This document shows positions 1,297 to 14,160 of a DNA stretch of 64,000 nt, piece after piece. The DNA is from Erythrobacter dokdonensis DSW-74 (GTDB lineage: Bacteria; Pseudomonadota; Alphaproteobacteria; Sphingomonadales; Sphingomonadaceae), in the NCBI RefSeq assembly GCF_001677335.1, contig NZ_LZYB01000003.1, positions 310,001-374,000 of the forward strand, read 5' to 3'. Below the pieces are notes generated by a model. It ran no database searches. It saw only the letters and a program-made list of their open reading frames with translations, and was not told the DNA's origin. The translations under genes were made by a program, and so were the position numbers. Positions within the stretch are counted from its first letter, which is position 1; each line of letters begins with the position of its first letter.

Positions 1297-2031
1297 TCAG
1301 GCGCCGAGCTGCGGGCAATCCTCGAGCGCGGCATCTGCGACTCGGTCGGCCGATGCCGCGTCGGTCTGCCGCAGCGCTTTGAGCGTCTGTGACAGGATGG
1401 CGCAGTCGAACTGGGTACCCCGAGCCATGCTCGCGGTGGCGATGTCGGCAAAGGCGGCAGGCGTCATGACCTGGATGCCGCGGCGCAGGAAGGTATTGTG
1501 CCAGCGGTCAGTCCCGTTGATGATGTCGACCAGCGTCCGCTGGCCGGGACCATTGGTCTGGTCAAGAACCGCTGGGGCCAGCTCCTGCAACAGGCCGTTC
1601 GGGGTGGCTCTGCGCAGAAACAGCGCAGCAAAGCGGCGTGCTGCCTCGGGCTCGTCGCCAGCGGCGAGGGCGAGACGCAGAACCGCTTCCTGAGCAATCG
1701 GCTCGCGCCAGCCGCGCTGGGCGGCAATCTGGATCGTCATCCCGGCCTGCTCTGCCTGGCCGGCCTTGGTCTGGGCCACTGCGAGCAAGGTCAGATGTTC
1801 GGCCGGAACCGGGCGGCGCCGAACCAGCCGCTTCGCCTCTTCGAGCGCCTTGGCTGTATCCGTGCTCTCCGCGGCGGCGGCGGCAATGCGGGGCTGGGCG
1901 TAGTTCCGTAGCGGCTGCGGAATCGTCGGGGCGAGCGACGGGGTCATGTCGGCCTGCCGGTCGATCTGGAGGAAGGCGGTTAACACCGCAAACGCCAGCA
2001 GGCTCGCCAGCCAGGTCAATCGGCCGATCAT
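1297..2031 (-). CDS. Membrane-anchored helical-repeat protein of unknown function, partner of the adjacent ligase/polymerase
   Basis: A 244-residue protein with one N-terminal hydrophobic segment (about residues 5-22) that would anchor it in the inner membrane with the rest outside. The body is Ala/Leu/Arg-rich and helical, with TPR-like spacing (EHLTLLAVAQTKAGQAEQAG, then AVLRLALAAGDEPEAARRFA). I recognise no catalytic motif. The start ATG overlaps the stop of the upstream O-antigen-ligase-like gene by four bases (ATGA), so the two are probably translationally coupled and act together in polymer assembly. It converges on mmsB with 16 bases between them. The function is inferred only from coupling. 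Confidence 0.6.
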   Translation of the reverse strand: MIGRLTWLASLLAFAVLTAFLQIDRQADMTPSLAPTIPQPLRNYAQPRIAAAAAESTDTAKALEEAKRLVRRRPVPAEHLTLLAVAQTKAGQAEQAGMTIQIAAQRGWREPIAQEAVLRLALAAGDEPEAARRFAALFLRRATPNGLLQELAPAVLDQTNGPGQRTLVDIINGTDRWHNTFLRRGIQVMTPAAFADIATASMARGTQFDCAILSQTLKALRQTDAASADRVADAALEDCPQLGA

Positions 2032-3377
2032 GCTGGCACCTTCCGCTGATCTGAGGCAATCCGTGCCAGCAGCAATAGGGCAAAACCGGCAAAGGCAAGG
2101 ACAGTCTGGTTGCGCAACGGATAGTCTGTGATCGATTGCAGCGCGATCGCGAGCAGGAAAGAGCTTCCGGCCCAGGCCGCCCAGCGTTGCGAGGACAGTC
2201 GCGCGCGCCAGCTCAGCCAGCCCACCAGCACGATCCAGAAGGCGGCAAGCACCAGCCCGGCCAGACCCGATTCTATCGCCAGTTCAAGGTAATCATTATG
2301 CGCCCGGCCCGCGGTGCGCTGGGTCAGGTTCTCCAGCGATTCGTCAACCTGGAACACCTCGTCGAAGGTGCCTGTGCCGGCGCCCACCGGCCAGTAACGC
2401 GTGGCGGCATAGGTCGCGTCGTCCCAGATGTAGCGTCGCGGATCGTCTCTGGCTTCAAATCGCTCGAAGGCTTCACCGATCCGGCCGGGGGCAGCGACGA
2501 CCAATCCGGTTCCCCCCAGGGCCAGCAAGGCAAGGGCGCCGATGACGATAGCCAGCGGACGCTGGCCGCCTTTGGCCGCTGCGGCGCGACGTTCGCGCAA
2601 GGCCCACCACAGGGCCTTGATCCCTGCCAATCCAAGTGGAATGGCCGCAAGCGCCATTGCGGTGCGTGACTTGGTCAGGATGATGGCGAGCACCAGCAGC
2701 GCACACAGCACCGCTCGCACCAGCGGAACAGCGGGATGCGGTCGCGGTGCCGGCAGCAGGGCTGCCAACGCCAGTGCAAACCCGAGCAGTAACCCGGTCG
2801 AGTTGCGATTGGCGAAGGTACCGAGCAGAACCTTTCCCGGACTGCGCGCTCCAAAAAGAGTGCCGCTGTCGCTGGCGGCTCCGAGCTGCGCGAGGCCGAA
2901 AAGCACTGTCACGAGCCCCAGACCGGCAGCCATCCAGCCAAGCGTAATGAGACGATCACGCGGCAGGCTCCAGCCGATCGCGAGCACCGTCAACGGGGTC
3001 ACCAGGGCCGTCACCGCGAGCGCGGTGCGCAGCGGATTGACGCTCATGGCCTGCCAGCCATTGCCGTCGGTCATCTCCAGCGAGCGCGCTACGAGTTCGC
3101 GGCCCGGCAATGCGGTCCACATAGCGGCAGGCAGCGGAATGATCTGCAGTAGCGGCAGGAGCAGCGACAGGCCGATCAACATCCGGAGAGGCAGAGGACT
3201 GGTACGCCAGAATTGCAGAACGGCGGCGCGATGCGGAACCAAGGCTGCGACGGCCGTCAGCTGTACGAGCAGATTGGCTAGGCCCTGACGACTACCTCCA
3301 CCACCAAGCGCGAAGGCCACCAGCAGCACAGCGGCGATGGTGAAGAAGGGTATCCGTTGTGCGAGGCTTTTGTCCAA
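2028..3377 (-). CDS. O-antigen ligase/polymerase family membrane protein
   Basis: About 449 residues with roughly ten to twelve membrane segments, beginning at FFTIAAVLLVAFALGGGG. A large periplasmic loop near the C-terminal third carries YWPVGAGTGTFDEVFQ and RAHNDYLELAIESGLAGLVL. The R-x-H-N-D-Y-L-E-x-x-x-E-x-G pattern is characteristic of the Wzy_C/O-antigen ligase superfamily, which joins undecaprenyl-linked glycan to an acceptor or polymerises repeat units. No ATG precedes the first membrane helix. TTG at 3377 is chosen, with AAAGG about 8 bases upstream; TTG at 3431, right at the edge of the terminator stem, is possible. It is coupled to the downstream helical-repeat gene. Polymerase versus ligase cannot be separated from sequence alone. 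Confidence 0.8.
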   Translation of the reverse strand: MDKSLAQRIPFFTIAAVLLVAFALGGGGSRQGLANLLVQLTAVAALVPHRAAVLQFWRTSPLPLRMLIGLSLLLPLLQIIPLPAAMWTALPGRELVARSLEMTDGNGWQAMSVNPLRTALAVTALVTPLTVLAIGWSLPRDRLITLGWMAAGLGLVTVLFGLAQLGAASDSGTLFGARSPGKVLLGTFANRNSTGLLLGFALALAALLPAPRPHPAVPLVRAVLCALLVLAIILTKSRTAMALAAIPLGLAGIKALWWALRERRAAAAKGGQRPLAIVIGALALLALGGTGLVVAAPGRIGEAFERFEARDDPRRYIWDDATYAATRYWPVGAGTGTFDEVFQVDESLENLTQRTAGRAHNDYLELAIESGLAGLVLAAFWIVLVGWLSWRARLSSQRWAAWAGSSFLLAIALQSITDYPLRNQTVLAFAGFALLLLARIASDQRKVPA

Positions 3378-3431
3378 AGTCGAGCCTTTGGTCCTGATTA
3401 GGCGCTGTCGTGTTGCAGCATTTCGCCGCAA

Positions 3432-3468
3432 ATGAAAAGGCCCGGCACTAGGTACCGGGCCTTTTCAT
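3432..3468. terminator. Bidirectional intrinsic terminator
   Basis: A perfect 14-bp inverted repeat: ATGAAAAGGCCCGG at 3432-3445 and CCGGGCCTTTTCAT at 3455-3468, with a 9-base loop. The GC-rich core is flanked by A4 and T4 on both strands, so it can stop transcription in either direction. It separates the small membrane protein gene (3501-3770) from the ligase-like gene downstream. Confidence 0.8.
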
Positions 3469-3500
3469 CGTGCCCTTGGGCTTTCAATAACAGATCCCGA

Positions 3501-3770
3501 TCAAGTGCCGGGCGACTGACCGTCGTCATCGGAATTGGAAGCCAGAATAATGCCGCCGATGATCGCAGCGCTAGCGAGCAGAAGGAGAATGATGCTGGTC
3601 CCGCTCTTGGCCGACTCGCCTTTCGCCTCACGGCCGAGGCCGGGTGCGGAAGCTGTGCTGTAGACAGCGTTGCTGTCTCCGGCGCGAGTGTTAGCCTGCG
3701 CAGCAATAGGGGTCACCACCATTGTCGCGGCGGCAGCGGCCATCATCATGCGGGAGGCAAGCTTCATCAT
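3501..3770 (-). CDS. Small secreted or membrane protein with signal peptide and C-terminal membrane helix, unknown function
   Basis: An 89-residue protein. Residues 1-25 form a classic signal peptide (MMKLASRMMMAAAAATMVV, ending in PIAAQA). A short polar middle follows, then a hydrophobic helix near residues 59-77 (TSIILLLLASAAIIGGIIL) and an acidic tail ending SNSDDDGQSPGT. The ATG at 3770 is preferred over an upstream alternative at 3836 because AGAGGG sits about 7 bases upstream and the signal peptide then starts at residue 1. It is followed by the strong terminator at 3432-3468, so it is probably a monocistronic unit. I do not recognise a family; its location beside polysaccharide and lasso genes is the only hint of role. 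Confidence 0.65.
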   Translation of the reverse strand: MMKLASRMMMAAAAATMVVTPIAAQANTRAGDSNAVYSTASAPGLGREAKGESAKSGTSIILLLLASAAIIGGIILASNSDDDGQSPGT

Positions 3771-3878
3771 CTTAGAGCCCTCTTGAACCTGAATGCGGAA
3801 AGATACGTACTGCACTGCGGCAAGATTGGCAACCATCTCTAGGAAAAAAAGGTAAACGCGTGGTTTGCCTCGTCGCGC

Positions 3879-4439
3879 CTATCGGTCCGAAACCGGAGTC
3901 GAGCCAGCCCGCTTTGTTTGCTTGGGGTCGGGCGCCTCCTCCGAACTCACCGAACTGCTGCGACCGGTATTCGTGGCAAGCACGCTGTTGGCAAGCAGCG
4001 GCTCATAAGGACTTATATCTCCTCCGCTTACCAATTTCCCGTCATGTACCAGCCAGGCATGGGCACCGAAGCCACTTTCGGACGACCGTTGCACGCCGAT
4101 CTGGATTTCGCTGGCAAGACCGGCGGAACCCAGCCAGTTCTGTCCGGCGATCGCCTGAACGAGGCAGTCGCTGCGCCAAGGCAATCGCGCGGATAACCGC
4201 GGAAGAACATAGGCGATGCGCGCAATATGTGACGGTTCCGGCACGACTTGGGCTCTCGCCTGTGCTTCCGCGCGCTCGTTTCGGAGCTTGATATCGCGTG
4301 CTTCCAGGCGTGCGAAAACGATTCGGGCGCGAACCAGCTCCGCCAGTCCCCTCGCACAATAGGCGGGCAGCCAGCCAAGGTCCCGAAGGCGTGGTCCGGA
4401 CCCTTCCGGCGGGATCGGCGATGGTTGCGGGGCAGACAT
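3879..4439 (-). CDS. Lasso peptide biosynthesis B2 protein (leader peptidase, transglutaminase-like)
   Basis: A 186-residue protein with the transglutaminase-like fold of the lasso B2/McjB C-terminal family. In split-B systems this cysteine protease removes the leader from the precursor. The catalytic triad is visible: Cys92 in LPWRSDCLVQAIAGQ, His127 in GFGAHAWLV and Asp133 in HDGK, with the usual six-residue His-to-Asp spacing. It lacks the N-terminal RRE domain of fused McjB; that role falls to the separate PqqD-like gene at 7502. The C-terminal 45 residues are polar and probably disordered. It is divergent from the cyclase gene, with 77 bases between the starts that must hold both promoters. 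Confidence 0.88.
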   Translation of the reverse strand: MSAPQPSPIPPEGSGPRLRDLGWLPAYCARGLAELVRARIVFARLEARDIKLRNERAEAQARAQVVPEPSHIARIAYVLPRLSARLPWRSDCLVQAIAGQNWLGSAGLASEIQIGVQRSSESGFGAHAWLVHDGKLVSGGDISPYEPLLANSVLATNTGRSSSVSSEEAPDPKQTKRAGSTPVSDR

Positions 4440-4516
4440 TGTCCGCCTAATGCCACAGCCGCAGCCAGCGGGCCAACCCTTGGCGGAATTGCGGCGTCGG
4501 AAAGGGGGTAAGCGGA

Positions 4517-6379
4517 TTGACGGGAATTGCCGCCATCTTCTCGCCCGACCCGGTCAGTAGCGATCAGTTGGGACGAATGGTCGAAGGCCTGTCGCCGCGA
4601 CGACACGATGCCACAGCGATGCTGGTCAAGGGTTCCCTGGGGCTCGCCGCCTGTGTTCTGCACACCACGACCGAATCGCGCGAAGCCGCGCAGCCTCTGG
4701 CCAACGAGAATGGCGGTCTGGCCATTGCGTTCGACGGTTTTCTGGCAAACTGGGAGGAGCTGCGCAGCGATCTCCTGTCCCGCGGTGCTATCCTGCGCAA
4801 TCGCTCCGATGCCGAACTGGTGCTGCGTGCCTACGAGACATGGGGCGAGGCGTGTGTTGGCCATTGCGACGGCGAGTTTGCTTTCGTCATTGCCGATTGG
4901 CGGCGCCAGCGGCTCTTCGGTGCCCGCGATCACCTCGGCCTGAAGCCATTGTTTCACTACCGCGACGGCGACCGCCTGCTTCTCGCCTCCGACATCGCTG
5001 CCATCATCACAGCGCTTGATCGCAAGCCTGAGCCCAATTTCGGTTTTCTTGCCAGCCTTATGGCGGGCGAGCTCTACAATGCCGAACAAACAGCTTGGCA
5101 GGATCTTGAGTCGCTGGCCCATGCGCATTGGCTCAGTTGCGACGGCGCGCGATTTGTGACCAGGCGCTACTATGAACTCCCCACCGAGGTCCCGATCCGT
5201 TACCGCACAGATGCGGAATATGCCGAGCGGCACCGCTGGGAACTGTTCGATGCGGTACGAAGGTCGTCGCGCTCCTGCGCGCCGCTGGCAATCGAGGTAA
5301 GCGGCGGGCTCGATTCCTCGGCCATTTTCGCGGCGGTAGATCACCTTCACCGTCAGGGCGAACTGCTCGCCCCCGATTTTTCCGGCTATACCCTTGTCGG
5401 CGAGGAAGGGACGCCCTCCTATGAAGTCCCCTATGCACGGGCCGTGGCGGACCATATTGCTCGGCGCGTTGAGGAAGTGCCGATTTTCCATCCGCCATGC
5501 GATTGGTACGTGGAGCAATCACGAACCGACCAGGAATTGCCGCCGCCCAGCAATGGCGCGATGTCGTTCGAACTTGAACGCTGTGCCTCCGAAAATGGTG
5601 CCCGTGTGCTGGTTACGGGACTCGGCGGAGACGAGTGGCTTGGCGGATCGAGAAGCTACTTTCGGGATTTTGCCGCGCGTCGCGATGGGGCAGGGTTCAT
5701 GCGCGCGCTGCGGGAGGATGTGGCGGTCCATGGCTGGCAGAATACTCTCCCGTTAGCGGCGCGGGGGGGAGTCTCCGGCTTGCTGCCCTCGACCTTGCGT
5801 CGGGGCATCAGGGCGCTCTTGAATCGGGACAAGACGAGCGCGCCAGTCGCCCCTGCTTGGCTCAAGCCACACCTGCGCGATCAGGTGGCGGAACTGGCCG
5901 CGCATTATCGCGAATCCTTGCCCGATAATCCGGACCTGCGTGAGCGCCGGCTCCGTTTCGCCTACCCTTGGTCGCTTTACAGCCGGGCAACGATGCTGCG
6001 TCAGCCCGCCAGCAACGGCCTTGAGCTGCGCTTTCCGTTCCTGTCGCGGCAATTCGTCGAGTTCAGCGCCGCGACGCCCGAATATGCCCGCATGCGCCGG
6101 GGCATCAACAAATACACTCATCGCCTTGCGATGCGGGGATTTCTGCCGGACATCGTAATCGAGCGCGACACCAAGGCGGCCTTCGATTTCGACGACACGA
6201 ACCGGATGATGTGCTCCTACATCACTGGGGTCGGCGCTCAGGTCCTCGATGACCTGGTGAACCACGATTGCTTTGTCAGGCAATTTGGCGAGAGAGTCGA
6301 GACAACGGTTGACGCGAGTTTAACTTGGCAGATATATGGCACTTACGCAGCCGCGTGTTTTTTGGAGCACGCGCATTAG
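4517..6379 (+). CDS. Lasso peptide cyclase (asparagine synthetase homologue, C protein)
   Basis: A 620-residue protein with an N-terminal class-II glutaminase-like domain and a C-terminal ATP-PPi synthetase domain. The PPi-loop motif SGGLDSS starts at residue 262. Lasso cyclases adenylate an Asp/Glu side chain of the core and close the macrolactam with the Gly1 amine. The start is TTG at 4517 (MTGIAAIF after translation), with AAAGGGGG 8 bases upstream. True asparagine synthetases begin Met-Cys-Gly-Ile and use Cys2 as nucleophile; here that position is Thr, so glutaminase activity should be lost, as expected for a cyclase. It lies 45 bases upstream of the precursor gene and is probably co-transcribed with it. 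Asparagine synthesis is rejected because of the missing Cys and the context. Confidence 0.9.
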   Translation: MTGIAAIFSPDPVSSDQLGRMVEGLSPRRHDATAMLVKGSLGLAACVLHTTTESREAAQPLANENGGLAIAFDGFLANWEELRSDLLSRGAILRNRSDAELVLRAYETWGEACVGHCDGEFAFVIADWRRQRLFGARDHLGLKPLFHYRDGDRLLLASDIAAIITALDRKPEPNFGFLASLMAGELYNAEQTAWQDLESLAHAHWLSCDGARFVTRRYYELPTEVPIRYRTDAEYAERHRWELFDAVRRSSRSCAPLAIEVSGGLDSSAIFAAVDHLHRQGELLAPDFSGYTLVGEEGTPSYEVPYARAVADHIARRVEEVPIFHPPCDWYVEQSRTDQELPPPSNGAMSFELERCASENGARVLVTGLGGDEWLGGSRSYFRDFAARRDGAGFMRALREDVAVHGWQNTLPLAARGGVSGLLPSTLRRGIRALLNRDKTSAPVAPAWLKPHLRDQVAELAAHYRESLPDNPDLRERRLRFAYPWSLYSRATMLRQPASNGLELRFPFLSRQFVEFSAATPEYARMRRGINKYTHRLAMRGFLPDIVIERDTKAAFDFDDTNRMMCSYITGVGAQVLDDLVNHDCFVRQFGERVETTVDASLTWQIYGTYAAACFLEHAH

Positions 6380-6424
6380 ACTAGCCGTTAAGGCATCCTG
6401 TCCTACGTTGATCGGAGACTTGGA

Positions 6425-6550
6425 ATGAATAAGCCCGAAGCGAAAGCGGAATACAAGGCGCCGCGGCTTGAAGTGTTTGGATCGGTTCGTAATCTTACCG
6501 GCGGAAGCAGTGGCACTATCCGTGACGGCGGACGCTCGCGCCGTTCCTGA
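6425..6550 (+). CDS. Lasso peptide precursor (A), 41 residues
   Basis: A small gene starting at ATG 6425 with GGAG at 6414-6417, seven bases upstream. The leader contains Y10, P13, L15, G19 and T25, which fit the motif YxxPxLxxxGxxxxLT recognised by lasso RRE proteins. Thr25 would be the conserved penultimate leader residue, placing cleavage after Gly26. The core would then be GSSGTIRDGGRSRRS: Gly1 and Asp8 allow an eight-residue macrolactam, leaving a seven-residue tail ending in Ser15. The tail has four bulky positions at most, all Arg, and no aromatic plug. It sits between the cyclase and kinase genes and is followed by a terminator-like hairpin. A nine-residue ring from Gly26 is a less likely alternative. 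Confidence 0.87.
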   Translation: MNKPEAKAEYKAPRLEVFGSVRNLTGGSSGTIRDGGRSRRS

Positions 6551-6576
6551 CCCGGTCATTTCAGGTTTCGATGGCG

Positions 6577-6607
6577 GCCCCGCTCCCAGAGCGGGGCTGT
6601 TTGCGTT
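6577..6607 (+). terminator. Hairpin after the lasso precursor gene (attenuator or terminator)
   Basis: A 9-bp perfect stem, GCCCCGCTC (6577-6585) and GAGCGGGGC (6589-6597), with a 3-base loop, followed by TGTTTGCGTTTTC. It begins 26 bases after the precursor stop codon. Partial termination here would give more precursor mRNA than tailoring-enzyme mRNA, a common arrangement in RiPP operons (inference). Confidence 0.65.
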
Positions 6608-6651
6608 TTCGGAGCAGCTTGCCTGAACAACTGGAAGGCTGAGTTCACTAG

Positions 6652-7515
6652 GTGATTCGCCTCGATCCCGCTCCTGCACGTTTGCAAGCGCCGCTTTCCA
6701 GCCCCCCATATGACAGCTGGATAACGCCCGCGGGCGAGGTGATGGCCGAGTTCCGGCGCCTGCCTGAAGGGTTCCTCATCCGCTTCCCTGGTGAAGCGGA
6801 TTTCGAAGTTTCGTTGGCGGCGGAGATAGTCCGCTGCTGTCCGACACCCGAGGCCGATCCGCAGCATATCGATAACCTCTACCGCAATTCCATCCTGCCG
6901 ATGCTCGGCAACCATTGCGGCGGTCTTTTTCTGCATGGCAGCTCCGTGGCAATCGATGGCCGTGCCGTAGCATTCCTTGGCCTTTCCCGCAGCGGAAAGA
7001 CCACACTGGCCGCTGCTCTTGCCAAGCACGGTTACCCTTTGCTGACCGAGGATGTGATCGAACTGGTTGCTTCGCCCGAGGGCTATGACCTGCAACCGAA
7101 AAGCGCATCGGTCCGTCTTTTTGCTGATAGCGCGGCCTTTATTCTGGGCGATCATGCAATGTCCGCGGATCCGGTTCGCAAGCATAGCGTGTCTGCCGAA
7201 GCAGGGCTTGCATTCCGCAGCCAGCCGGCACCTCTCTCCCACATGTACCTGCTCGGCAATGACCCCGATGCCCCCCTGCATTGCGAGCGTCTCTCCCCGC
7301 CGGCGGCGCTCAAGCAGATGTTGCTTCACTCCTTCATTCTTGATGTAGAGGACCGGCAGAGGCTCAATGCGCATTTCTGTCGCATTGCGGACCTCTCCGA
7401 AAGAATACCGTGTTCCGCGCTTGACTACCCGCGCAGATATTCCGAACTGGCCAGCGTTCTCGAAGTGATCGTCAAGGGATCGGACTCGCCTGGGGGTAGT
7501 GATGCAAGCCGATGA
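6652..7515 (+). CDS. HPr-kinase-like lasso peptide kinase (K)
   Basis: A 287-residue protein related to the kinase domain of HPr kinase/phosphorylase. The P-loop GLSRSGKTT lies at residues 110-118. It is preceded by LHGSSVAIDG (94-103) and followed by the LLTEDVIEL segment (130-138), which carries acidic metal/nucleotide residues. It lacks the N-terminal HPrK domain, and no PTS genes are nearby. Homologues in lasso clusters (the paeninodin/ThcoK type) phosphorylate the C-terminal Ser of the precursor, and the precursor here ends in Ser. The start is GTG 6652; the nearest SD-like sequence (GGAAGG) is rather far upstream, so the start is less certain. It overlaps the next gene by 14 bases. Confidence 0.82.
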   Translation: MIRLDPAPARLQAPLSSPPYDSWITPAGEVMAEFRRLPEGFLIRFPGEADFEVSLAAEIVRCCPTPEADPQHIDNLYRNSILPMLGNHCGGLFLHGSSVAIDGRAVAFLGLSRSGKTTLAAALAKHGYPLLTEDVIELVASPEGYDLQPKSASVRLFADSAAFILGDHAMSADPVRKHSVSAEAGLAFRSQPAPLSHMYLLGNDPDAPLHCERLSPPAALKQMLLHSFILDVEDRQRLNAHFCRIADLSERIPCSALDYPRRYSELASVLEVIVKGSDSPGGSDASR

Positions 7516-7777
7516 AAGTTTTGTGGTGTCAACCGATGTCGTCTCGCGCGAGGTAGCGGGAGAAATGGTGCTGCTCGATTTATCCAGTGGGCAGTATTTC
7601 GGCCTTAATGAAGTCGGCAGCAGAGTCTGGAGCCGCCTGACGCAGGGGGCTTGCTCCATTCGCGATCTGAGCCTTCTTGTCGAATCCGAGTTTGCGGCCC
7701 CTTACGAACAGATCGAGCAGGATGTACTGGTGCTTGCCCGTGACCTTCTTGAACGCGATCTTATCCGACCTGCCTAA
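7502..7777 (+). CDS. PqqD-family leader-recognition protein (lasso B1, RRE domain)
   Basis: A 91-residue single-domain protein of the PqqD/RRE fold. It has an N-terminal strand region (VVSREVAGEMVLLDLSSGQY), the conserved FGLNEVGSRVWSRL segment (about residues 33-46), and a helical C-terminus. In split-B lasso systems B1 binds the leader motif YxxP...G....LT and delivers the precursor to B2 and C. ATG 7502 is chosen, with TGGGGG five bases upstream; GTG at 7499 is possible. The 3' end overlaps the stop of the convergent ABC exporter gene by four bases. PQQ synthesis is rejected, as no other pqq gene is present. Confidence 0.87.
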   Translation: MQADESFVVSTDVVSREVAGEMVLLDLSSGQYFGLNEVGSRVWSRLTQGACSIRDLSLLVESEFAAPYEQIEQDVLVLARDLLERDLIRPA

Positions 7778-9432
7778 CCCGGCTCTGGCGCCTGACCACC
7801 GAGGCGAAGGTCGGTGGCATCGAGCACCCTGTCGGCAAGGGCAAGGCTTGCGGGCCGATGCGAGATTATGATCACTGTGCGGCCTTTCAGGGCACCAATG
7901 CAGGCTTCGACAAAGGCCGCCTCGCTGTCGAGGTCGTACATGCTGGTCGCTTCGTCGAGGATGTAGATCGGCGGATCGCGCAGCAAGGCGCGGGCAAGGG
8001 CAATGCGCTGGCGCTGGCCGCCGGACAGCCGCACTCCGTGATCGCCGACCCTGGTGGAAAGCCCGTGTGGCAGGCGGTCGATGAATTCCGATGCCTGGGC
8101 CAGATCGATTGCTCGCTTCAGCGCAACCGGATCGGGATCCGTCGCGTCGAAGGCGATGTTTTGCGCTATAGTCCCGTTGAATAGCAGGGGCTGCTGCGGC
8201 ACGTAGCCGAACTGACGCCTGAGATCTTGTATCTGCAGGTCAGAAATATCGATCCCGTCGAGCGTTATGCGGCCGGAATCGATTTCGTAAAAGCGCAGCA
8301 ACAGGCGAACCAGCGTGGACTTCCCCAGTCCGTTCTCGCCGGTCAGTGCGACGATCTGTCCCGGTGCGATCGAAAGATTTAGTCCGTCGAAAATCGTGGG
8401 GCGACCGGGATAGGCGAATTTGACGTTCTCCAAGCGGATCGCGCCCTGCGCTCGACCCAACCGAACGGTCCCGGCGTAACCATCCTCGATCGGTTTTGAG
8501 AGCACGTTCTCGAGCCGTGCCAGCGTCCCGCGCGCAATCTGGAATGCGCCGTAGGTTTCTGCCAGTCCGCCCACCGGACGGGTAAGCAGCGCTGCATAGA
8601 GCAGGAAGGTAAAGACTTCGCCGGGAGTGCGTCCCCCGTTATCGATCTGCCCGTTGCCGGCGACGAGGATGGCAATCGCCGCGATCGCCGCTGCTAGCGC
8701 GAGGGCCGGTCCGAGCACCGCAGCCAGGCGGGCCTGAGCCACGGCCAGGACGCGCGCCTTTTCGATCGCTTCGCCGTATCGCTGCTGGAAGCTGTCCTCG
8801 GTAGCGAAAGCCTTTGTCGCTGAAATCATCTCCAGATCGCTTTCCGCCAGCATGATGAGATCGGTTTCGGCCTTGCGGAAGCGACGAGACGCATTGCGCA
8901 ATCGGCGACCGAACAATCTGGCGAGAATGAAGAAGACCGGTACGATGATGGGCACGATCAATCCGATCGTGGGATCGATCAGGAAGAGCAGCAGGGATGC
9001 TCCGGCCGCAGTCATGATCATGGCCGGCACGTTGGCCAGTGTCGCCGTGAGGAACCGGCTGAGATTCTCGACCTCATAGGTCATCAATGCAAGGAGATCT
9101 CCGCTGCGGCTATGATCGTGAAATGACAGGGGCATCGCCTGGATATGGGCATAGACCTCGCGGCGAAGGCCGGCGAGGATCCGGCCCGAAGCATGTTCCG
9201 ACAGCACCGCAACGACAATATTGATGATCGCCAGAGTTACGAGCGCGGTCAGCAGCAGCGCGACAGTCGGATAGAGATCATCGCCGACATCTCCGACAAC
9301 ACCGGCAAGGAAGTTGCCGGCAAGCCAGGGGATTGCCAGAGCCGCCAGCGAACTGAGCAGCGAAAGGCCGCTGAGCGTCGCGATCTCGCCGATGAACGGG
9401 CGCGCCCTGTTCCAAAGCAAGTTCAGGTTCAC
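7774..9432 (-). CDS. ABC transporter, fused membrane and ATPase domains (lasso exporter D)
   Basis: A 552-residue half-transporter. Six membrane helices occupy about residues 10-300 (starting FIGEIATLSGLSLLSSLAAL), followed by a nucleotide-binding domain with Walker A GENGLGKST, signature LSGGQRQR and Walker B IYILDEATS. It would act as a homodimeric exporter of the mature lasso peptide and give self-protection, as McjD does for microcin J25. The start is GTG 9432 (VNLNLLWNRARP), because the region further upstream in frame encodes no membrane-protein sequence and overlaps the preceding gene. It follows the nucleotidyltransferase gene on the same strand by 41 bases and converges on the A-K-B1 operon. 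Confidence 0.86.
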   Translation of the reverse strand: MNLNLLWNRARPFIGEIATLSGLSLLSSLAALAIPWLAGNFLAGVVGDVGDDLYPTVALLLTALVTLAIINIVVAVLSEHASGRILAGLRREVYAHIQAMPLSFHDHSRSGDLLALMTYEVENLSRFLTATLANVPAMIMTAAGASLLLFLIDPTIGLIVPIIVPVFFILARLFGRRLRNASRRFRKAETDLIMLAESDLEMISATKAFATEDSFQQRYGEAIEKARVLAVAQARLAAVLGPALALAAAIAAIAILVAGNGQIDNGGRTPGEVFTFLLYAALLTRPVGGLAETYGAFQIARGTLARLENVLSKPIEDGYAGTVRLGRAQGAIRLENVKFAYPGRPTIFDGLNLSIAPGQIVALTGENGLGKSTLVRLLLRFYEIDSGRITLDGIDISDLQIQDLRRQFGYVPQQPLLFNGTIAQNIAFDATDPDPVALKRAIDLAQASEFIDRLPHGLSTRVGDHGVRLSGGQRQRIALARALLRDPPIYILDEATSMYDLDSEAAFVEACIGALKGRTVIIISHRPASLALADRVLDATDLRLGGQAPEPG

Positions 9433-9473
9433 GAGACACCCGGCTCCATGTTCGGCATGCGAAAGCTGCTTTC

Positions 9474-10661
9474 CTAACCGTTCCGGCCAAAACGCAAAAG
9501 CGCAGAGGCCGATTGCAGCAGGCGCCACGTATACAACGCAACGTTCGGCCAGTGCCGCTTGTCGGGAAAGCGGTCCTCCAACACGTCGCGTTCCGGGAAG
9601 ACTTGCCGCAGCACGAGGCCGCGCCGGATCCCCCAATCAGGAGCAGCCGCAAAATCCTGTCTGAACCTCTGAAAGTTCGATTGCTGCGCCAGATACCGGG
9701 ACACCGGGCCTTCGGCCGTTTCTGCAGACAGGGAATCGATACACCTGTCGGGAATGCCCGTTCCCAGGCGATCGCGAGCAAATAGCAGTCCGGCAAGAAC
9801 CGTCCCGGCAGCACCGCTCCTGTGTGAGATATCGCTCAGCAGGGACCAGTCACTCGCGTCGAGACGGGCACACATGAGGTCGAGATCTACTGCCCAGATC
9901 AGTCTTTCGGAATCGAAAACTCTCTCGCCCTCAATGTGATATCCTAACATGTTGTGCGCCTGACGATTGATGCAAATCATGAGGATATTGTCGACAAGCC
10001 CAAGGCTGCGCGCATTCGCCGATAGCCGGGGCAGAGCGATGGTACGCGTCTCGAAGCCGTTTTGCGCGAGCGCGGCAGCCAGCGTCGTTGATGAGCTCAT
10101 TGCCCAATGGACATCAACCTCGTGCGTGAACCCGCCTTGCGCATCCACGACCCATGCTTCCTGAAGCCCAAAATGGTGTCCGCGGGGACGGAATCCGAGC
10201 GCCCGCAGGCAGCGACGTGCGTTGTCCCGTTCGGCACCAGCAAGGACAATGTCGGTATCGCCGCGCCTGCGCATCGCCGGATCATCGTAGCAGGAGTAGG
10301 CGATGGCCGTGCCCTTCATGAGCAGCGGTTCGAAACCCCGCGCATGCAGCGCCTCAACCAGTTGCGCCACGCGCTGGCCATGGCTGATTTCCCACAATGC
10401 CTGCAGTCGGGCTTGTTCGAGGATGCTCTCTTGAAGGACCCTTGGCAGACTGTCTGGCATGCTGCCCGCGAGCAGTAACGCGATCCCATGAAAGTCGATC
10501 CGCGAAATGACTTCCGCCTGGGCGCCGTCGAGCTCTTGCGACCAGGGCGGGCAATCGCTTCCGCGAAGTGTGGCTCGCACACAGTCGGCAAGGAACCTGT
10601 CCGCCCTTGCGATCGACCCAGCGCTATCCACCCGTTGCACTCGCTTTTCCCCGCTGCTCAC
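9474..10661 (-). CDS. Nucleotidyltransferase family protein of lasso cluster (NTase_5-like)
   Basis: About 395 residues. The nucleotidyltransferase signature is visible as LLMKGTAIAYSCYDD followed by MRRRGDTDIVL, where the G-D-x-D acidic pair would bind metal and NTP. The matching third acidic residue is probably in HEVDVHW. The family (PF14907 type) recurs in lasso clusters that carry an HPr-like kinase. In pseudomycoidin the homologue was reported to extend the phosphorylated C-terminus with hexoses, so a second tailoring step on the phospho-Ser is plausible (inference). The start is uncertain: GTG 10661 is chosen; other in-frame GTGs follow within 30 bases. It forms a two-gene unit with the exporter. 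Confidence 0.75.
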   Translation of the reverse strand: MSSGEKRVQRVDSAGSIARADRFLADCVRATLRGSDCPPWSQELDGAQAEVISRIDFHGIALLLAGSMPDSLPRVLQESILEQARLQALWEISHGQRVAQLVEALHARGFEPLLMKGTAIAYSCYDDPAMRRRGDTDIVLAGAERDNARRCLRALGFRPRGHHFGLQEAWVVDAQGGFTHEVDVHWAMSSSTTLAAALAQNGFETRTIALPRLSANARSLGLVDNILMICINRQAHNMLGYHIEGERVFDSERLIWAVDLDLMCARLDASDWSLLSDISHRSGAAGTVLAGLLFARDRLGTGIPDRCIDSLSAETAEGPVSRYLAQQSNFQRFRQDFAAAPDWGIRRGLVLRQVFPERDVLEDRFPDKRHWPNVALYTWRLLQSASALLRFGRNG

Positions 10662-10816
10662 GGTAGCGTGGCTGCCCTTAGCCCATACTGGGGGGGTTGC
10701 CACTGTTTTTGTGGGGCGCGCATCTGCCTCACAGATTAGCGATTGACCCACTTTTCCCATGCTGCAATGCGGCAAGTGCAACGCAGCTCAATCGCAAGGC
10801 GGGGTTTTCTTTTCAT

Positions 10817-11713
10817 ATGGCGACCGATTGCATCAGGCGTGGCATCATCCTTGCCGGCGGTTCCGGGACGCGGCTCTACCCGTTGACGCGGGGCGTCTCC
10901 AAGCAGCTCATGCCGATCTTTGACAAGCCGATGGTCTATTATCCGCTCAGCACGCTCATGCTGGCGGGCATCCGTGAAATCCTGATCATCACCACCCCCG
11001 AAGATGCAGATCAGTTTCGGCGTGTGCTGGGCGATGGTTCCGATTTCGGCGTCTCGTTGAGCTATGCGGTGCAGCCCAGGCCCGAAGGTCTTGCGCAAGC
11101 GTTTCACATCGGCGCGGATTTCGTGAAGGGCGGCCCCAGCGCACTTATTCTCGGCGACAATATTTTTTACGGTCATGGCCTGCCGCAATTGCTCAAGAGC
11201 GCAAGCGCGCGCACGACCGGGGCAAGCATTTTCGCTTACCGGGTGACCGATCCGCAGGCGTTCGGCGTGGTTGAATTCGATGCCAGCGGCAAAGCGATCT
11301 CGATCGAGGAAAAGCCCAAGGTCCCCAAGTCGAACTATGCTGTGACAGGTCTTTACTTCTATGACGAAACCGTTGTCGACCGGGCGCGGGATCTGAAGCC
11401 TTCGGCACGCGGTGAACTCGAAATCACCGATCTGAACCGGCTGTACCTGGATGAGGGCACAATGGCTGTCGAGATCATGGGGCGCGGCTTTGCGTGGCTC
11501 GATACGGGCACCCATGCCTCGCTGCTCGATGCCGGGACCTATGTCCGCATCACCGAGGAGCGGCAGGGGCTAAAGATTTCATGCCCCGAAGAAATCGCCT
11601 GGCGGCAGGGCTTTATCACCTCCGACCGGCTGCGGGAAATCGCTGAGCCGCTGCGCAAGTCGGGCTATGGTGAATACCTTCTCAAGGTGCTCGAAGAGAC
11701 GGTGCCCGCGTGA
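10817..11713 (+). CDS. rfbA: Glucose-1-phosphate thymidylyltransferase
   Basis: A 298-residue enzyme that makes dTDP-glucose from glucose-1-phosphate and dTTP, the first step to dTDP-L-rhamnose. The nucleotide-binding signature [20 protein letters not shown] is at the N-terminus, and [10 protein letters not shown] and [20 protein letters not shown] follow in family order. The start ATG 10817 gives [15 protein letters not shown]; the in-frame extension upstream is not conserved-looking. It is the first gene of a tight rfbA-C-D-B operon and overlaps rfbC by four bases. Confidence 0.95.
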
Positions 11714-12255
11714 ACATCATCGAAACCGCTCTGCCGGGTGTTCTGATCATCGAGCCACGCGTGTTTGGCGATGAACGCGGCTTCTTCATGGAGACATGGA
11801 ACGCTGCGGCATTTGGCGCGGCCGGGCTCGACCTTGCCTTTGTGCAGGACAATCACAGTCGCTCGCAGAGGGGCGTTCTGCGCGGCCTGCATTTCCAGAA
11901 TCCGGGGGCGCAGGGCAAACTGGTGCGGGTGACGCAAGGCGCGGTGTTCGATGTCGCGGTCGATCTGCGCAAGTCCTCGCCGACTTTCGGCCAGTGGGTC
12001 GGGGTGGAACTCAGCGCCGATAACAAACGCATGTTCTGGGTGCCTGAAGGCTTTGCTCACGGGTTCCTCACCCTCGAGGACGACACGGATTTTCTCTACA
12101 AGTGTACAGCGCCTTACGCGCCGCAAAGCGAATATACGCTGGCATGGAACGATCCGGCGGTCGGGATCGACTGGCCGGTGACCGGCCTTGATCCCATTAT
12201 CTCCGAAAAGGACGCGCGCGGGCTTTGTCTCGCCGATGTACCGGTGTTTGCATGA
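11710..12255 (+). CDS. rfbC: dTDP-4-dehydrorhamnose 3,5-epimerase
   Basis: A 181-residue cupin-fold epimerase acting on dTDP-4-keto-6-deoxyglucose. Family hallmarks are the [18 protein letters not shown] opening, [18 protein letters not shown] with the catalytic His, and [23 protein letters not shown] 11710 overlaps the rfbA stop (GTGA), indicating translational coupling; its own stop overlaps the rfbD start. Confidence 0.96.
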
Positions 12256-13109
12256 AGGTACTGATTACCGGAGCGGGCGGCCAGCTTGGCGGCGCATTGA
12301 CCCGGCTGGCCCCTGCATGGGCTGAAATCAACGCGATTGATGCCGACGATTGCGACTTCACCGAGGTCGAGATGCTGCGCGCCCGGCTGGTCGTAGAATC
12401 CCCGGACGTTATTCTCAACGCGGCCGCCTACACTGCGGTCGACCGGGCCGAGAGCGAGCCAGATATCGCCCATGCGATCAATACGGAGGCGGTCGAGGCG
12501 ATGGTCGAGGCCATGGCCGAAACGGGCGGAAAGCTTGTCCATGTGTCGACAGATTTCGTTTTCGACGGCCAGTCGAGCGACCCGTACCAGCCCTCTGACG
12601 TTCGCAACCCCCTGTCCGTCTATGGACGCACCAAGGCAGAGGGAGAGGACAAATTGCGCCCCGAGGACCTGCTGGTGCGAACCGCCTGGGTCTATGAAGC
12701 GGGCGGTGCCAATTTCGTGCGCACCATGATCCGGCTCATGAAGGAGCGCGACGAATTACGGGTGGTTGCCGACCAGGTGGGTGCGCCGACTTGGGCCACC
12801 GGCCTTGCTCGCACCATCTGGGGGCTGACCGAGAAAGGCGCGACCGGAATCTTCCACCATTGCGACGACGGAGTGGCAACGTGGCACGAATTCGCCGTCG
12901 CCATCGCCGAGGAGGCCCATGCGCTGGGCCTGATTGCGAAGGTTCCGGTGATCCACGCGATCACCAGCGCCGAATATCCCACGCCTGCGCGGCGTCCGGC
13001 ATTCTCGCTGCTTGATTGCAGCGCCACCCGCACCTTTCTGGCAGACGCGCCGGTTCACTGGCGCACCAATCTGCGGCTGATGCTCGAAGAGGAAGCAAAG
13101 CTTGGCTAA
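12252..13109 (+). CDS. rfbD: dTDP-4-dehydrorhamnose reductase
   Basis: A 285-residue short-chain reductase that forms dTDP-L-rhamnose. The N-terminal motif TGAGGQLGGAL binds NAD(P)H. The core NAAAYTAVDRAESEPDIAHA and the catalytic YGRTKAEGE (Tyr-x-x-x-Lys) are present. ATG 12252 overlaps the rfbC stop (ATGA). Its 3' end overlaps the start of rfbB by eight bases. Confidence 0.96.
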   Translation: MKVLITGAGGQLGGALTRLAPAWAEINAIDADDCDFTEVEMLRARLVVESPDVILNAAAYTAVDRAESEPDIAHAINTEAVEAMVEAMAETGGKLVHVSTDFVFDGQSSDPYQPSDVRNPLSVYGRTKAEGEDKLRPEDLLVRTAWVYEAGGANFVRTMIRLMKERDELRVVADQVGAPTWATGLARTIWGLTEKGATGIFHHCDDGVATWHEFAVAIAEEAHALGLIAKVPVIHAITSAEYPTPARRPAFSLLDCSATRTFLADAPVHWRTNLRLMLEEEAKLG

Positions 13110-14160
13110 TCTGCTTGTTACCGGTGGCGCCGGATTCATCGGCGGCAATTTCGTGCATTACTGGAATGCCCGGCACCCTGACGCCCGCGTGGTGGTGCTC
13201 GATGCGCTGACCTATGCCGGCAACCGCTCGACGCTCGAAGGCAGCAAGGCCGAACTGGTGGTCGGCGACATTCGTGACACCGCGCTCGTAGAAGCCCTGC
13301 TGCGCGATCACGAGATCACCACGCTGGTGCATTTTGCTGCGGAAAGCCATGTCGACCGTTCGATCAGCGGGCCGGATGCCTTCATCGACACCAATATCCT
13401 CGGCACCAATAGCCTGCTGAAGGCCGCACGCGCGGTCTGGCTGGCGGGCAGCGGCGTGCCGCACCGCTTTCACCACATCTCGACCGACGAGGTATTCGGC
13501 TCGCTCGGCCCGAATGATCCGGCTTTTTCCGAGACCACGCCTTATGCGCCCAACTCACCCTATTCGGCATCGAAAGCGGCGTCCGACCACCTCGTTCGCG
13601 CCTATCATCACACCTTCGGGCTCGAGGTGACGACGAGCAATTGCTCGAACAATTACGGGCCCTACCAGTATCCCGAAAAGCTGATCCCGCTGTTCCTGCT
13701 CAACGCGCTGCACGGGCGCAACCTGCCGATTTATGGCGATGGCATGAACGTGCGCGACTGGCTGCATGTCGAGGATCATTGCCGCGGGATCGAGGCGTGC
13801 CTCGCGCGCGGCGTGCCGGGAGAGACCTATAATATCGGCGGCGGGGCGGAACTGCCCAACATGACTGTGATCGATCGCGTCTGCACCGAAGTCGACTGTG
13901 CCTTCGCCGAGGTCGACGGGCTGGCACAGCGCTACCCCGATGCGCCCGCCGCCAGGGGTGAGCCGACCGCCAGCCTCAAGACCTTCGTCACCGACCGAGC
14001 CGGACACGACCGGCGCTACGCCATCGACGAAACCAAGGCCCGCGCCGAACTGGGCTACGCACCCGCGCACACCTTCGAGGATGGACTGCAGCAAACCCTA
14101 CGATGGTACCTCGACAACGAACAATGGTGGCGTCCGCTGGTCGGGCAGGTGCAGGCCTGA
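13102..14160 (+). CDS. rfbB: dTDP-glucose 4,6-dehydratase
   Basis: A 352-residue extended SDR enzyme converting dTDP-glucose to the 4-keto-6-deoxy sugar. It shows TGGAGFIGGNFVHYW (NAD binding), HFAAESHVDRSI, STDEVFGSLG and the active-site YSASKAASDHLVRAY. The start is TTG 13102, with GAAGAGGAAG upstream; it overlaps rfbD by eight bases, and its stop overlaps the next start (TGATG). The rfbA-C-D-B order differs from the B-D-A-C order of enterobacteria. Confidence 0.95.
   Translation: MANLLVTGGAGFIGGNFVHYWNARHPDARVVVLDALTYAGNRSTLEGSKAELVVGDIRDTALVEALLRDHEITTLVHFAAESHVDRSISGPDAFIDTNILGTNSLLKAARAVWLAGSGVPHRFHHISTDEVFGSLGPNDPAFSETTPYAPNSPYSASKAASDHLVRAYHHTFGLEVTTSNCSNNYGPYQYPEKLIPLFLLNALHGRNLPIYGDGMNVRDWLHVEDHCRGIEACLARGVPGETYNIGGGAELPNMTVIDRVCTEVDCAFAEVDGLAQRYPDAPAARGEPTASLKTFVTDRAGHDRRYAIDETKARAELGYAPAHTFEDGLQQTLRWYLDNEQWWRPLVGQVQA

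Follow-up and report, generated by a model that had tools for sequence, protein, structure and literature searches.

Lasso-peptide clusters that pair a kinase with a nucleotidyltransferase have few studied members. The bsf cluster of Bradymonas sediminis FA350 has been published with seven genes, A, B1, B2, C, D, K and N, and its kinase BsfK phosphorylates core Ser3, accepts Thr3 and acts with the help of B1 (Duan 2023, PMC10368454); its host is proteobacterial in the older sense (Deltaproteobacteria). The reviews PMC9266682 and PMC8498205 describe SyanK of the sphingomonad Sphingobium yanoikuyae as a lasso kinase acting on the C-terminal Ser. For pseudomycoidin of Bacillus pseudomycoides, PMC9266682 reports that the C-terminal Ser carries a phosphate plus one or two hexoses, while its section on paeninodin of Paenibacillus dendritiformis describes separate B1 and B2 proteins, an HPr-like kinase and a conserved C-terminal Ser, and mentions no N protein.

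We analyzed a 64,000-nt stretch of the Erythrobacter dokdonensis DSW-74 genome (contig NZ_LZYB01000003.1, positions 310,001–374,000; hereafter the window), in which positions 3879–10661 hold a lasso-peptide gene set of seven genes: A, B2, B1, C, K, D and N. This set is of an already known, published type. It shares with bsf the gene complement, the YxxPxL leader and the Gly1/Asp8 ring; bsf has Ile(-2), a C-terminal Asp and a kinase acting on Ser3, whereas the window has Thr(-2), a clade-invariant Ser2 and a C-terminal Ser. With the Syan system, whose precursor is phosphorylated, the window has in common a sphingomonad host and an HPr-kinase homologue, but the C-terminal Ser is conserved there and not in the window's clade, SyanK being compared by description only. 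A kinase and a nucleotidyltransferase beside the lasso core genes also occur in the pseudomycoidin cluster, which differs in its Firmicute host and its decorated C-terminal Ser (PsmN, too, was compared by description only). Paeninodin resembles the window in its separate B1 and B2 and its HPr-like kinase, and differs in its Firmicute host and conserved C-terminal Ser. The exporter-plus-tailoring type assigned in the initial annotation stood; the remark that it is better known from Firmicutes leaves out the published proteobacterial bsf (PMC10368454) and sphingomonad SyanK (PMC9266682, PMC8498205), and the type is not confined to that phylum.

Profile, structure and conservation evidence confirmed the compact seven-gene cluster that had been annotated, and the conserved residues that were checked were in place. 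Among the 396 genomes searched within the order, the kinase and the cyclase as queries selected an identical set of 27 (E up to 1.5e-41 for K and up to 1e-50 for C), and the complete complement of seven genes occurred at 21 of the 37 loci compared, window included; because it recurs in related genomes, the arrangement is more than chance. We regard the locus as a functional-looking lasso cluster of class II type, its core having no Cys, whose product should be a small knotted (lasso) peptide bearing a phosphate and perhaps a sugar. In the TonB/isopeptidase lasso type, such as that of sphingopyxin I, an isopeptidase and a TonB receptor adjoin the cluster. The window lacks this pair, as had been annotated: none of the genome's 30 TonB Plug domain matches falls in the window, and the best genomic match to the isopeptidase model NF033523 scored 73 bits against a cut-off of 400, leaving none over it. 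The lasso leader model and the B2 model were each over cut-off once in the genome, and a second lasso cluster was not found. Elsewhere in the genome the cyclase search gave two weaker matches (28% identity, E 4.7e-28; one partial), taken for other amidotransferases, and against plasmid records it was uninformative (362 matching records, all below 60% identity; 26–29% among the 30 listed).

Apart from B2, the initial annotation had named a PqqD-like B1, a cyclase lacking the glutaminase Cys, a short precursor, an HPr-like kinase, an ABC exporter and an NTase-5 protein, and each assignment was borne out, that of the kinase by its predicted fold. Precursor A (6425..6550, plus strand; 41 aa) passed the lasso leader model NF033521 (21.4 bits, cut-off 19) and was further supported by comparison with relatives. 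Its leader comprises residues 1–26, with YxxPxL at -17 to -12 and Thr25 at -2, and its core, GSSGTIRDGGRSRRS, contains a predicted Gly1–Asp8 ring (Asp8 is Asp34 of the precursor). Thr(-2) was seen in 35/35 distinct cores, as was an acid at core position 7–9, but the search patterns behind most of the 35 already demanded the acid and T/I/V/A at -2.

The B2 leader peptidase, a transglutaminase-like Cys protease (3879..4439, minus strand), matched PF13471 (73.1 bits) and NF033537 (64.8 bits, cut-off 33); a phmmer search of B2 against solved structures gave no match. In the annotated triad C92/H127/D133, C92 and H127 were kept in all 25 aligned sequences, but D133 was present in only 3/25 and was dropped; the third residue is probably D141, a position with D or E in 24/25. 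B1 (7502..7777, plus strand; overlapping the end of K) matched PF05402 (56.8 bits, cut-off 23.4) and, by phmmer, the solved lasso B1 protein TbiB1 (8.8e-10) as well as TfuB1. Cyclase C, an asparagine-synthetase-like protein (4517..6379, plus strand; predicted TTG start), was over cut-off for both PF00733 and PF13537. It has no N-terminal Cys, residue 2 being S, T or A in 37/37 aligned sequences, and S262, D266 and S267 of the SGGxDS ATP motif were kept in all 37. In the suggested check against lasso profiles, B2 and the precursor exceeded the lasso-model cut-offs; C (best model NF033535, 254.9 bits, cut-off 525) and B1 (NCBIfam's two lasso PqqD models) fell under them and exceeded the Pfam ones. 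All four proteins fit a lasso biosynthetic cluster.

Exporter D (7774..9434, minus strand), MsbA-like with PF00664 and PF00005 domains, has a predicted GTG start at 9434; its open frame extends to 9636. N (9474..10661, minus strand; predicted GTG start) is an NTP_transf_5 protein matching PF14907 (90.9 bits, cut-off 31.2), with K156, R171, D175, D177, H220 and D223 (numbered from the long open frame) in 30/30 sequences. The open frame of N extends to 10781. Both minus-strand genes, N and D, are arranged head to tail in the manner of a single operon, and the plus strand carries C, A, K and B1.

K, a putative HPr-kinase-fold peptide kinase (6652..7515, plus strand; predicted GTG start), had no Pfam match at E 0.001 and scored only 32 bits with NCBIfam HprK_rel_A (cut-off 200), but its AlphaFold model (pLDDT 91.5) matched the PEPCK and HPr kinase folds. 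H95, S112, K116 and D134 were present in 37/37 sequences; position 133, Asp in the published motif, is E in 31/37, the window included, and D in 6/37. Short kinase matches at L110–L141, mostly from Sphingobium, Sphingopyxis and Sphingomonas, were presumed to be ordinary HPr kinase and excluded, since the DNA retrieved around them gave no match to the cyclase, B1 or B2.

From the genes, motifs, co-occurrence and conserved residues we infer the catalytic steps, the cleavage site and the site of modification as follows. B1 would bind the YxxPxL leader of A, and K, using ATP, would phosphorylate the linear precursor at a hydroxyl of the ring segment. B2 would cleave after Gly26, with Thr at -2, and C would activate Asp8 and join it to Gly1, giving an 8-residue ring. 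N may then extend the phosphate with a hexose or a nucleotide, a role proposed by likeness to PsmN as described and not by sequence, and D would export the product. The calculated masses are 1529.777 Da for the unmodified lasso, 1609.743 Da with a phosphate, and 1771.796 and 1933.849 Da with one and two hexoses added to that phosphate form. We consider this pathway as a whole, with K acting on a ring hydroxyl and most likely that of Ser2, rather probable; that the target is Ser2 itself has about an even chance.

Since the window's core carries Ser3 and ends in Ser as well, this peptide by itself leaves the choice of site undecided. Across relatives, all 31 distinct cores in the kinase clade of the window have Ser2 (28 adjoining a kinase and three elsewhere in two of those genomes), with search patterns that did not require it. 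Ser or Thr occupied position 3 in six of these cores, position 4 in 11, position 5 in 11, position 6 in two and position 7 in three. This conservation suggests a phosphate on the ring rather than at the tail end, and the clade offers about 30 natural variants predicting one ring site, Ser2. A methyltransferase of neighbouring branches is absent from both the window and its closest relative, L077, and Ser2 is present in both, so it is not kept for that enzyme. Because the rows are related, the core counts are not independent, and we found no clean control lacking K for Ser2 conservation. Repeats were dropped (L085, a repeat of L053; L088, of L059; L092, of L065); at L045 the precursor is absent beside the kinase, and L059, cut by a contig end, contributed only its core. 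The counts exclude loci that yielded no usable precursor: L062, L063, L067, L069–L071, L073, L090, L094–L098 and L101–L142.

Phosphorylation of core Ser3, as in bsf, is a possible but doubtful alternative. BsfK targets Ser3 and accepts Thr3 (PMC10368454), the window has Ser3 and L077 has Thr3, and position 3 carries Ser or Thr in 7/9 more distant kinase clusters and in five of the seven outer relatives. None of these seven has Ser2, which counts against a Ser2 site; L086 and L087 have Ser or Thr at neither position 2 nor 3, and in the seven Ser or Thr turns up at 4 or 5 (6/7) as often as at 2 or 3 (5/7). Within the window's clade, however, position 3 is Ser or Thr in only 6/31 cores, and at -2 the leader in the window carries Thr instead of the Ile of bsf. 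Over the three sets, Ser or Thr stood at core position 2 or 3 in 44/47, and in 45/49 once L066 and L068 were added, two loci outside the first search patterns whose candidate precursors are absent from the three-set counts.

A paeninodin-type reaction, in which K would phosphorylate the C-terminal Ser15 and N would place a hexose there as in pseudomycoidin, is unlikely. The window precursor ends in Ser, and Firmicutes lasso kinases and SyanK are described, in the reviews PMC9266682 and PMC8498205, as acting on a C-terminal Ser. Among the 23 unfused distinct cores of the clade, however, only the window's own ends in Ser; the last residue of the other 22 is F, M, V, I, L, K, P, D, A or G, with Val in the closest relative L077 (Ser2, Thr3). 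A C-terminal Ser was rejected as a clade rule on this count, and the initially suggested comparison with paeninodin and pseudomycoidin, which implies that target, is a weak analogy, Ser2 being the invariant residue of the clade. Candidate precursors ending in Ser do occur at three distant kinase loci of the order (L066, L068 and L072), but their kinases belong to a six-row group (94/93), and a 97/97 split separates that group from the part of the tree that holds the window.

That Ser2 is kept for leader cleavage or cyclization while K modifies another molecule or regulates is improbable: Ser2 lies at the cleavage site and adjoins a nearly invariant GSVRNLTG block, so recognition by B2 or C, instead of use by K, may fix it, and K activity in the clade is a prediction, but K accompanies C in 27/27 genomes and overlaps B1, and related kinases act on precursors.

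Returning to Ser2 phosphorylation, a broader version of it, to which we give somewhat less than an even chance, combines a separate kinase clade, a phosphate (with N's addition) on ring residue 2 and a self-releasing S74 follower in some relatives. Residue 2 would be part of the macrolactam ring, a single residue away from the isopeptide bond. By Pfam and sequence profiles, ten lasso precursors of relatives, L043, L083 and L087 among them, carry a C-terminal Peptidase_S74 domain, a self-cleaving intramolecular chaperone; one of the ten is cyanobacterial. These fusions belong to part of the window's clade and to more deeply branching relatives, namely a gammaproteobacterium and a cyanobacterium. 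The window lineage has the short, unfused form. The chaperone would cut itself off and could thereby set the C-terminus of the core, which, if true, would be a new route to the C-terminus of a ribosomal peptide; the literature searched yielded no paper on S74-fused lasso precursors. For the fused precursor L043, the model (mean pLDDT 63.4) gave nothing at E 0.001 or better in Foldseek, with E 2.9 and 6.4 only against the intramolecular chaperone 3gw6; this is a negative result for the fold, so the S74 assignment is based on Pfam and sequence profiles.

One sigma-70-like site was found in 3400–10900 against 2.0 expected and thus gave no promoter evidence. Terminator-like sites in the same interval numbered 10, not above chance since shuffles gave 7.3 (sd 2.5); the one with the longest stem is a hairpin directly 3' of A (6573..6601, plus strand; z -3.58). 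In the nine relatives with an A–K gap of 432–632 bp, A is likewise followed by a strong hairpin that has a T-rich tail (no shuffle control), and the window's hairpin is a possible attenuator allowing A to be made in excess over K and B1.

All seven lasso genes proposed in the initial annotation are present in the window, which carries a real, complete and probably functional kinase-and-nucleotidyltransferase lasso cluster: the leader peptidase B2 (3879–4439, minus strand), the cyclase C (4517–6379, plus), the precursor A (6425–6550, plus), the kinase K (6652–7515, plus), the leader-binding protein B1 (7502–7777, plus), the ABC exporter D (7774 to ~9434, minus) and the NTP_transf_5 protein N (9474 to ~10661, minus). 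B2, B1, N and D had strong family-level support, A passed the leader-model cut-off by a narrow margin (21.4 bits vs. 19), and C is a clear Asn-synthetase homologue, yet below the NCBIfam lasso-cyclase cut-off. K had no match in Pfam; the top hits of a profile search were HPr kinase chains (best E 0.00039), and a Foldseek search with its AlphaFold model (built with 20 relatives, pLDDT 91.5) returned structures of PEPCK and HPr(Ser) kinase (1j3b_B, E 1.3e-7; 3tqf_B, E 3e-7). Surface-polysaccharide genes flank the cluster, with an O-antigen ligase (PF04932) on the left (2028–3431) and, on the right (10817–14160), genes recognised by eye that we take to be dTDP-rhamnose synthesis-like.

The active sites were compared in alignments of the window proteins with relatives. 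H95, S112, K116 and D134 of K are kept in 37/37 sequences (the residue preceding the last Asp is Glu in 31), as are S262, D266 and S267 of C, while N retains K156, R171, D175, D177, H220 and D223 in 30/30. The cyclase was said to lack the glutaminase Cys, and residue 2 is indeed never Cys among the aligned C sequences. Two members of the proposed B2 triad, C92 and H127, are invariant (25/25), but the third, D133, is Asp in only three; D141 (Asp in 20, Glu in four) is the more likely third residue.

The cluster is a unit. Searches of 396 genomes of the order with K and C returned identical sets of 27 genomes (kinase E up to 1.5e-41, next best 5.9e-26; cyclase E up to 1e-50). We compared 37 loci, each picked by its kinase: the window, its nearest named relative L077 (Porphyrobacter sp. 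RI_32, Erythrobacteraceae; kinase identity 62%), 25 others and 10 further. The full set was found in 21, N in 34 (absent from L056–L058), and D had no match within the stretch in eight; the D thresholds were loose, so that other ABC transporters may be among its matches. A methyltransferase-like gene of ~375 aa is present in 23 loci (e.g., L053:6752–7879), lying upstream of K, within the C/A–K gap, in all but one of them (22); in L089 it precedes C. The gene is missing from the window, L077 and 12 more loci, and was probably lost in the window lineage, since the kinase tree places the window and L077 beside two carriers, L034 and L035 (support 94/83 and 91/86). Nine related genomes (L036, L038, L042, L046–L050 and L052) have 432–632 bp without a recognisable gene between A and K, where others have the methyltransferase.

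The architecture is already known: Bradymonas carries an identical gene set in its bsf cluster (PMC10368454), a sphingomonad lasso kinase, SyanK of Sphingobium yanoikuyae, has been tested (PMC9266682), and lasso clusters were predicted in several Erythrobacter species, with no gene detail in the text consulted (PMC9723273).

Precursor A reads MNKPEAKAEYKAPRLEVFGSVRNLTG (leader) and GSSGTIRDGGRSRRS (core), with the predicted cut placed by Thr(−2) and the YxxPxL motif (positions −17 to −12), as for published precursors; the bsf paper mentions precursors of Sphingomonadales that have Ile/Val at −2 (PMC10368454). All 35 distinct cores have Thr(−2) and an acid at 7–9, counts that are not independent tests because most cores were found with patterns that already specified the acid and allowed few residues at −2; these patterns set no requirement on Ser2 or the last residue. 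A terminator-like hairpin lies directly 3′ of A (6573–6601), strong hairpins occupy the same place in nine relatives, and the element is a possible attenuator.

From the core sequences, the most likely target of K is the ring Ser2. This residue is invariant in the 31 distinct cores of the window's kinase clade (23 of them unfused), whereas Ser/Thr occurs at position 3 in six, 4 in 11, 5 in 11, 6 in two and 7 in three, although these rows are related by descent and the counts not independent. Ser2 adjoins the cleavage site and could instead be kept for the needs of B2 or C. The sole cyclase–precursor pair found without an adjacent kinase (L158, genome G345) has Ser2 but is no control, because its genome carries a kinase elsewhere. 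Action on Ser3 is a rather unlikely alternative, given its scarcity in the clade, although in nine more distant kinase clusters Ser/Thr is found at position 3 in seven, in agreement with the published BsfK site (Ser2 in one, Ser/Thr at 2 or 3 in eight, at 5 or 6 in seven). In seven outer relatives Ser2 is absent and Ser/Thr stands at 3 in five (2 or 3 also five), a ring-start pattern that is not outstanding, since positions 4–5 and 5–6 are equally frequent (6/7 each); pooled, the three sets have Ser/Thr at 2 or 3 in 44/47. The kinases of paeninodin and pseudomycoidin, to which the initial annotation had pointed for comparison, act on a C-terminal Ser (PMC9266682 and PMC8498205, as far as the accessible text goes), and the window core does end in Ser, but as the only one of the 23 unfused clade cores, making this target improbable.

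Two distant precursor candidates that lie outside the pooled count are near cyclase and kinase matches (motif starts L066:5029 and L068:4902) and are of another type, with W at the motif start, a nine-residue ring and the C-terminal Ser that reviews report for SyanA (PMC9266682, PMC8498205). The precursors of L066, L068 and L072 all end in Ser, and in a tree of 30 kinases chosen from those collected their kinases fall in one six-row group (94/93; no precursor was found for the remaining three) split from the window's side (97/97). C-terminal-Ser precursors thus go with another kinase branch, as would be expected if SyanK-like kinases form it. Judged by titles, none of the papers in our literature search deals with the Ser2 pattern, and the window's clade gives a sharp, testable prediction of the kinase site.

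The window precursor is unfused, but at ten loci the lasso precursor continues in frame into a Peptidase_S74 domain: L037:9015–9398, L041:6428–6784, L043:9913–10269, L054:6824–7180, L082:7552–7923, L083:6440–6796, L086:5009–5428 (Contendobacter MAG), L087:6419–6838 (Cyanobium), and L165 and L166 from genomes G345 and G012. The two fused proteins scanned scored 29.5 and 27.4 bits against PF13884 (cut-off 22), and a profile search matched the MYRF ICA domain 7dc3 (9.9e-7) and a phage tail fibre; structure prediction for a fused precursor did not support the S74 fold. The domain begins S-D-x-x-x-K, with Ser and Lys (+5) invariant in the eight precursors aligned and spaced as in the auto-cleavage dyad S578/K583 (PMC3742443, accessible part). 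A cut before this Ser would give cores of 16–25 residues (unfused cores, 14–34), and the domain may act as a follower that cleaves itself off and in this way fixes the C-terminus of the core. Fused precursors occur in 6/396 genomes of the order; in a phylum sample of 398 genomes, only two of those six had the lasso leader part matched from the start (weaker S74 matches were partly inspected). The fusion label requires four changes on the kinase tree. No paper describing a lasso precursor of this design turned up in our literature search, which covered endosialidase, Peptidase S74 and tail fiber domains. In G345 the kinase cluster lacks a precursor, a cyclase–precursor pair with a two-Cys core lies apart from it, and the S74-fused precursor has no lasso gene match within ~8 kb; G012 has a similar orphan. 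The scattered arrangement of these genes (loci L158, L045, L186 and L187) suggests action in trans.
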